NCBI GenBank assembly: GCA_003223115.1
Contig: QHXW01000175.1
Location: 1-46,941 of the forward strand
Length of the DNA: 46,941 nt
Direction of reading: 5' to 3'
From: Acidobacteriota bacterium
Lineage (GTDB): Bacteria > Acidobacteriota > Terriglobia > Bryobacterales > Bryobacteraceae
In this document: piece after piece, positions 28,931-30,492 of the stretch
How positions within the stretch are numbered: the stretch's first letter is position 1
Layout of the letters: every line of letters begins with the position of its first letter
The notes under the pieces: generated by a model
Databases searched by the model: none
What the model was told of the DNA's origin: nothing
Seen by the model: only the letters and a program-made list of their open reading frames with translations
Program-made: the position numbers and the translations under genes

Positions 28931-29731
28931 ATGGTGGCGCAATCTGTGCGCGTCGGCATTATCGGGGATTTCAACCCCGTGTTCCGTTCGCATCACGCGA
29001 TCAACAGCGCGCTAGAGCACGCGGCAAACCGGCTTTCCGTAGACGTGGAGACCGTCTGGTTACCGACTCCGGCACTATCGGGCCGCGGTGTCCATGAAAT
29101 CCTGGCGAACTACGACGGCCGGTGGGCTGCATCCGGCAGCCCATACGATTCGCTCGACGGAGCGCTGGCCGCCATTCAGTTCGCACGCACGCGAAACTGG
29201 CCGTTCGTGAGCACTTGAGGCGGATTCCAACATGCTCTGTTAGAGTATGCGCGCAACGTAATGGGCATCGCCGAAGCTGATTCAGCCGAGCACGGCAGCC
29301 CGTCAAAGGAGCTGTTAATTACTCCCGTTGCTTGCCCCATGCCCGATCGTTCAGCCGGCGATCCGAAACTTTCCGGCAGATCTTCGGTGCGAATCGAGCG
29401 TGGATCGCGGCTGGCGCGCCTCTACGGCCTGGCCAATGGGTCGTCTCCCTGCACCGGCGAGATTGAAGAAGAATACTGCTGTAATTACGAAGTGAATCCG
29501 GATTACCGGCGGGAGTTTGAGCAAGCCGGGCTTTCGATCACTGCCACCGGCGACACTGGCGAGGTGCGTGCCATCGAGATTCCGGGCCACCGGTTCTACA
29601 TTGCCACGTTGTTTCAGCCGCAGTTATCCTCCACGCATGAGACACCGCACCCCATTGTGCTCGGATTCCTAGCTAGGCTGCGTAGCCGGCCGCGCCGTCG
29701 CCGCCTGATAAAATTGCGTCCGTGGCTGTAA
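28931..29731 (+). CDS. glutamine-amidotransferase-like selenoprotein (CTP synthase C-terminal-related), Sec at TGA 29216
   Basis: This is read as one gene of 266 residues with an internal TGA (29216-29218) decoded as selenocysteine 96. Sequence on both sides is in the same frame and belongs to the same family. Before it comes [20 protein letters not shown], typical of class-I amidotransferase relatives. After it come [16 protein letters not shown] and [19 protein letters not shown]. The TGA falls exactly at the nucleophile of the (T)CGGFQHA motif, where relatives have Cys or Sec. A hairpin follows at the bacterial SECIS distance. RefSeq uses the name CTP synthase C-terminal region-related (seleno)protein for this family. 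Of the canonical GATase triad, the FHPE motif of CTP synthase reads FQPQ (228-231), so amide transfer is uncertain and a redox role is possible. The alternative is a nonsense mutation of Cys96. The last codons overlap the SDR gene start by 10 nt. Confidence 0.82.
29216..29252 (+). promoter_or_regulatory. candidate bacterial SECIS element
   Basis: The RNA hairpin lies just after the UGA (29216-29218). CATGCTCT (29231-29238) pairs fully with AGAGTATG (29242-29249) over 8 bp with one G-U pair, leaving a 3-nt loop GTT (29239-29241). The loop starts 20 nt after the UGA. A further GCG/CGC pairing (29220-29222 with 29250-29252) could extend the base around an internal loop. The described bacterial SECIS pattern needs an upper stem, a small apical loop with a G in its first two positions and 16-37 nt spacing. 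All three are met here. Confidence 0.65.
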
Positions 29732-30492
29732 CGCTCGAATCCATGACCGCCCTAGTAACCGGCGCGAGCAAGGGAGTAGGCAAGGGGATTGCTCTGGAAC
29801 TGGCGCGCGCGGGCGCCGCGATCATCGTCAACTACAATACTGACACGAAGGGTGCAGAGAAGACGGTCGATGAAATTCGCAGCCTGGGCCGTGAGGCGAT
29901 TGCCATACCGGCTGACGTGGGCGTGGCGGCGGACGTAGATCGCATGTTCGAGCAGGCCGTCGAAAAATTTCCGCGTATCCAGATTCTGGTGAACAACGCC
30001 GGAGTCCAAACCTGGAAACCGTTGCTCGAGCTTACGGAATCCGAGTGGGACCGCACCATCAACACCAATCTCAACGGCTGTTTCCTATGCACGCAGCGGG
30101 CGGCGCGCCATATGCGGGAATCCGGCGCAGGCAGAATCATCAATATCGGATCGGGATGCAACAAAGTGGCGTTTCCGAATCTGGTGGACTACACCTCGAG
30201 CAAAGGCGGCATCGAAATGTTCACCAAAGCGGCGGCCGTGGAGCTGGGGAAGTACGGCATCACGGTGAATTGCGTGGCGCCAGGCGCCATTGAAATCGAG
30301 CGAACCAAACACGAGGCCGGCGATTATGCTGCTACTTGGGCGAAGCTGACGCCGCTCGGACGCGTGGGCCAGCCGGTGGATGTGGCGCGCGCGGTGGCCT
30401 TTCTGGCGAGTGACGCCGCGGCATTCATTACCGGTCAAACTCTGTGGGTGGATGGCGGGTTGTTCAGTAAACCATCGTGGCCCTATGATTAG
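29722..30492 (+). CDS. SDR-family short-chain dehydrogenase/reductase
   Basis: This is a 256-residue NAD(P)-dependent classical SDR, close to the glucose 1-dehydrogenase / 3-oxoacyl-ACP reductase type. The cofactor motif [11 protein letters not shown] is near residues 13-23. Other features are the VNNAGVQ core motif, the catalytic Ser in NIGSGC, the YxxxK catalytic pair in DYTSSKGG, and the family end [15 protein letters not shown] 29722 is taken as the start and overlaps the selenoprotein gene's stop by 10 nt. ATG 29743 would give a slightly shorter N-terminus. TAAAAT lies 7 nt before GTG 29722. Substrate not predictable. Overlap suggests expression linked to the selenoprotein gene. Confidence 0.88.

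Follow-up and report, generated by a model that had tools for sequence, protein, structure and literature searches.

The family of the gene analyzed here appears among the selenoproteins of two recent publications. In the available text of the deep-Sep study of 2025, a COG0504/PyrG glutamine amidotransferase of Desulfosediminicola ganghwensis is presented as a newly recognized selenoprotein whose homologues in other bacteria include TGA- and Cys-containing ones, and the acidobacteriote Occallatibacter riparius appears with no new selenoprotein (PMC12013277). The available part of a 2026 review catalogues the family under NF004836, with the motif GxUxG, and lists a Desulfosediminicola-type protein as WP_419249736.1 (PMC13188914). 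Our literature searches for NF004836, PRK06186 and glutamine amidotransferase selenoproteins found no functional study of the family. We investigated a member of this family encoded in a 46,941-nucleotide stretch of DNA (hereafter, the window) that spans positions 1 to 46,941 of contig QHXW01000175.1 of an Acidobacteriota genome (GCA_003223115.1). Sequence comparison leads us to conclude, with a probability of roughly 95%, that the in-frame UGA at codon 96 of this gene is read as selenocysteine (Sec), and that the gene thus encodes a selenoprotein (Table 1).

Table 1. Coordinates of the features discussed in the text, given as positions in the window.
Feature	Position	Strand	Remark
NF004836 selenoprotein gene (CTP synthase C-terminal region-related (seleno)protein)	28931..29731	+	266 residues, TGA predicted to encode Sec
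Start codon of selenoprotein gene	ATG 28931 (GTG 28934 as alternative)	+	
In-frame TGA, predicted Sec at residue 96	29216..29218	+	opposite Cys379 of E. coli CTP synthase
SECIS-type hairpin	29231..29249	+	8 bp, loop GUU 20 nt after UGA
Cys135 codon	29333..29335	+	Cys in 67/67 family loci
Cys184 codon	29480..29482	+	Cys in 67/67 family loci; opposite His469 of E. coli CTP synthase (counted by hand)
Q229-P230-Q231 codons	29615..29623	+	H515-P516-E517 in CTP synthase
Short-chain dehydrogenase (PF13561)	29722..30492	+	directly downstream of selenoprotein gene

The first-pass annotation of this DNA had described the frame as open save for one TGA and free of further damage, and the frame indeed contains this single internal stop and terminates with TAA. 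It had also assigned both halves of the gene to one family and cited the name given in Table 1, which exists in NCBIfam. When the TGA was supplied as Cys, one NF004836 match bridged it, extending over residues 6-248 of the read-through protein and profile positions 1-225 of 228 (9.1e-78); hence, the two halves belong to one family. The score of this match, 260.5 bits, exceeds the curated cut-off of 260 bits by a thin margin, and a six-frame search of the gene with the same profile remained below it (252.7 bits). NF004836 ranks first among the profile matches of the 266-residue protein and CTP synthase models rank second, while the Pfam GATase model PF00117 matches with 30.7 bits (cut-off 22.8). 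A phmmer search against solved structures returned 25 distinct sequences at E <=1, all of them carrying the name CTP synthase. No Rfam family matched the window at gathering scores.

Family members were drawn from overlapping sources: genome contigs (25 loci), the window genome together with 60 relatives (seven family-level hits), 399 class-level genomes, of which 32 gave a hit at 1e-55, and 396 genomes of the phylum, of which 13 did. The working set comprises 67 loci and includes near copies (e.g., the proteins of L029 and L097 are identical), so that counts drawn from it are not independent. Two further genomes, G090 and G320, gave family hits without a stop and lie outside the 67; the G090 region (L127) served for the neighbourhood comparison only. 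Sixty-six loci cover residue 96 (L050 is a contig-edge fragment that ends short of it), and they carry TGA in 13 cases, Cys in 51 and Ser in two. The first-pass annotation had expected Cys or Sec at this column in the homologs, which holds for 64 of the 66 and fails for the two Ser copies; its argument that the TGA is not randomly placed is borne out by the 13 loci sharing it. No TGA was found at any other column among the 67 loci, each frame being terminated by any TGA that lay beyond aligned residue 140, save in two contig-edge fragments, and every family-level hit of the genome searches contained either no stop or one TGA. In an earlier analysis, L091 showed one TGA off the column, in a frame extended to 452 residues, with no stop inside the family match. 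Relatives with named records, at 49-56% identity, come from Acidobacteriota, which makes this phylum the probable source of the window as well.

A tree of 65 rows, from which the contig-edge fragments L050 and L051 were left out, requires at least four changes between Sec and the other forms, two of which are forced by well-supported branches; the tree included the Sec column and gives no direction of change. A Sec gene (L104) and a Cys gene (L107) are sisters within one genus. The two Ser copies, L056 and L093, are related to each other and yet retain Cys135 and Cys184. We also observed that position 106, ten residues past the elbow residue 96, is Cys in 13 of 66 loci (e.g., L029-L038), with a Cys codon there in one Sec gene.

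Downstream of the TGA, the genes that carry it share a SECIS-type hairpin that begins 12 nt past the UGA and presents, at 20 nt, the loop GUU (nine genes) or GGU (four genes). All eight pairs are formed in 13 of 13 TGA genes, as opposed to none of the 53 Cys/Ser genes. One pair differs on both sides, with U-A turned into C-G in L104, while three further pairs differ on a single side. Moreover, the seven-codon block with the highest third-codon identity among 12 TGA genes falls on the hairpin and reaches 0.95, the mean being 0.43. When the eight-pair rule was applied to other codon offsets of 12 TGA genes, at least seven pairs were found at 19 of 3028, a proportion that is not a probability because the genes are related. 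According to the available text of the review, the bacterial SECIS model has a 3-9 nt loop, a 4-16 bp stem, a G within the first two loop positions, a spacing of 16-37 nt and a minimum free energy limit of -7.5 kcal/mol (PMC13188914). With its 3-nt loop GUU, G in first place, 8 bp and 20-nt spacing, the hairpin of the window gene fits these structural limits; the free energy of its 19-nt core, -7.4 kcal/mol, falls narrowly short of the limit of -7.5, and that of a 63-nt stretch is -18.

Folding energy did not set the site apart. The 63-nt fold is not exceptional (z -0.68; 46 of 200 shuffles equally good), an equally good fold arises at 32 of 79 positions sampled elsewhere in the window gene (every third codon), and under the same rule 15 to 43 positions do so in each of the other eleven TGA genes. 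Some Cys genes even surpass Sec genes in folding energy (to -13.5), but they do so elsewhere in the stretch. Since the site is not special by shuffles or by other codon positions, we gave minimum free energy no weight in the case for the hairpin. The RNA fold that the first-pass annotation had suggested examining is upheld as a structure kept in all the TGA genes, and not as an energetically distinctive one. In L028 the best-scoring hairpin is longer and different, and the shared 8-bp hairpin is present as well. We also weighed an excess of the rare Leu codon TTA as a mark of RNA constraint and set it aside: TTA accounts for 16 of 737 Leu codons across 15 ORFs of the window and for 4 of 24 over the whole selenoprotein gene, so that its excess is not confined to the hairpin. 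A Cys-form gene from the same phylum (L131) forms seven of the eight hairpin pairs, possibly a relic of the Sec form or a step towards it.

The window genome (9.1 Mb, 594 contigs, 97.5% complete, 4.8% estimated contamination) contains the full set of Sec genes for which the first-pass annotation had proposed a search. The selA (496.8 bits), selB (370.9) and selD (356.8) genes each score above their own cut-offs, and the tRNA-Sec scores 69.9 bits against an Rfam cut-off of 47 and is called tRNA-SeC with anticodon TCA by ARAGORN; the second locus above this cut-off is a tRNA-Ser. All the sel genes lie on contigs other than that of the selenoprotein gene, which, like the fragmentation and estimated contamination of the assembly, counts against the selenocysteine reading. 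The selD gene (L022, G000:C289:23397-24320) itself contains a single TGA, placed after AAG as residue 24 of the frame, which we take to be the usual Sec site; hence, UGA decoding is to be expected elsewhere in this genome. An AIR-synthase-related protein (PF00586) encoded in the window at 12473-13549 matches selD weakly (53 bits, below the cut-off of 125) and is not the selD of the genome. Across genomes, selA is present in 12 of 12 TGA genomes tested and in 18 of 24 that lack a TGA copy (Fisher p 0.08), with G351, one of the 18, scored as positive on two fragments under the cut-off and the later-found G446 excluded from the twelve; this co-occurrence offers weak support. We propose that SelB and Sec-tRNA would decode UGA 96 as Sec, steered by the hairpin at 29231-29249.

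Could the TGA instead be a plain stop, belonging to a pseudogene with a nonsense mutation or separating two short genes (28931-29218 and 29261-29731)? The mechanical ORF list does contain two ORFs, yet the same column holds TGA in 12 other genomes whose proteins are only 37-62% identical to the window protein, and such divergent genes are not copies of one error. The frame contains no second stop, the hairpin bears the mark of silent-site constraint, and the genome is equipped with the Sec machinery; we regard a plain stop as highly improbable. A sequencing or assembly error in a Cys codon would demand a single change from TGC or TGT, and Cys is the residue found in 51 of 66 homologues; however, TGA and hairpin recur together in 13 genomes and the full hairpin is missing from all the Cys/Ser genes, which leaves an error scarcely credible and the least probable explanation that we considered. 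The selenocysteine proposed by the first-pass annotation is thus strongly supported by the family column, the sel genes and the hairpin.

The gene neighbourhood was compared across 42 loci with mechanical ORFs. The short-chain dehydrogenase gene also follows directly in two other loci of the same genus (L109 and L110), where it is approximately 82% identical, and L043 has a distant short-chain dehydrogenase downstream (24% identical). Across the three same-genus genomes the selenoprotein is 55-56% identical; hence, it evolves much faster than its neighbour. There is no family-wide neighbour among these loci, the most widely shared gene occurring in 11 of 42. This gene is the upstream neighbour in the Sec-form locus L115 (G378) and in ten Cys-form loci (e.g., L029-L035), and its presence beside both forms fits a switch between Sec and Cys in place.

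The window protein is a stand-alone domain, lacking the CTP synthetase part, with Cys/Sec at a GxC/UxG-type elbow; its residue 94 is Ser, while Gly occupies this column in 49 of 57 proteins. Its AlphaFold2 model (pLDDT 86.2, pTM 0.86, from 23 sequences) matches the CTP synthase 3nva (Foldseek 4.1e-23; Z 33.3, rmsd 2.0, 235 aligned, 30% identity), and the predicted fold is that of the CTP synthase glutaminase domain. When the protein is aligned with the 1s1m chain of E. coli CTP synthase and numbers are counted along the two rows, residue 96 falls on Cys379, Q229 on His515 and Q231 on Glu517, the Cys-His-Glu residues that we take to be the catalytic triad. The triad of class I glutamine amidotransferases is incomplete in the window protein, which has Gln at both the His and the Glu sites. 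Position 229 is Q in 56, V in 8 and L in 2 of 66 loci, and never His; position 231 is Q in 46, E in 19 and P in 1. The position facing E. coli R470, a contact of the glutamine carboxylate, is N in 46, S in 9, R in 9, T in 2 and D in 1 of 67 loci, and is Asn in the window protein. With the elbow Sec/Cys kept, and His and mostly Glu lost, the nucleophile appears to have been retained without the glutaminase apparatus. The first-pass annotation had placed the TGA at the catalytic Cys of an amidotransferase: this stands for the ancestral nucleophile position, and does not stand as a statement of present function, given that His is found in 0 of 66 loci and Glu is absent from 47 of 66. Of the two invariant Cys residues, Cys135 is absent from eight of nine CTP synthases inspected, that of T. 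brucei having a facing Cys, and lies in a stretch of the model with pLDDT <50; Cys184 is absent from the CTP synthases inspected.

The protein is a free-standing relative of the glutaminase domain of CTP synthase. Given the loss of the glutaminase His and the presence of two further invariant Cys residues, its chemistry is probably a different one: we expect, at about even odds, that Sec/Cys96 in the nucleophile elbow would not hydrolyze glutamine and would rather act as a redox or electrophile-attacking selenol, which Cys135 or Cys184 could possibly resolve. These same features make the label "glutamine amidotransferase" doubtful. Continued activity as a glutaminase or amidotransferase, with Sec as the nucleophile and other residues replacing His and Glu, would account for the glutaminase fold of the model and for the elbow Gln Q100 (kept in 66 of 66 loci) and E120 (63 of 67), and would agree with the name used in the available text of the deep-Sep study (PMC12013277). 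Against it stand the missing catalytic His in all 66 loci and the missing Glu in most, the rarity of Arg opposite R470 (just 9 of 67), and the comparison of 42 loci, in which no shared synthase partner gene was found; we therefore consider a surviving glutaminase unlikely. We would lay even odds on the more far-reaching proposal, built on conserved residues, that the whole family consists of former glutaminases now working as selenol or thiol catalysts, with Cys135 and Cys184 resolving or metal-binding, and that the printed label is wrong. Against a new function of this kind speak the Cys facing Cys135 in T. brucei CTP synthase, the low model confidence around Cys135, the Ser at position 96 in two members and the lack of a neighbour gene common to more than 11 of 42 loci. 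Neither the lost His nor the two invariant Cys residues are mentioned in the available text of either publication (PMC12013277, PMC13188914).

Our comparisons provide strong support for a little-studied selenoprotein family. Should the label of glutaminase prove mistaken, an amidotransferase fold may have acquired selenium chemistry to serve a new end. The Sec, Cys and Ser variants that occur in nature, among them the Sec and Cys pair in one genus (L104 and L107) and the Cys forms of Sporomusa and Anaerocolumna, make this idea directly testable.

We herein compare the window protein with three known systems. It resembles NF004836 (PRK06186.1) in the location of its Sec or Cys and differs from it in an insertion of approximately eight residues around positions 167-176; in a 58-row alignment, positions 171-176 are occupied in the window row alone. 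To the D. ganghwensis selenoprotein, compared by the description in the available text, it is alike in belonging to the same reported family (PMC12013277). With the glutaminase domain of the CTP synthase PyrG it shares the fold and the nucleophile position; unlike PyrG, it has no synthetase domain, its His, Glu and R470 positions are replaced, and it has an extra Cys184 and, relative to eight of the nine CTP synthases inspected, an extra Cys135. The genome encodes a separate PyrG on another contig (C118), with the motif FHPEF. By these sequence comparisons, the window gene is a well-supported addition to a selenoprotein family that is already in print.
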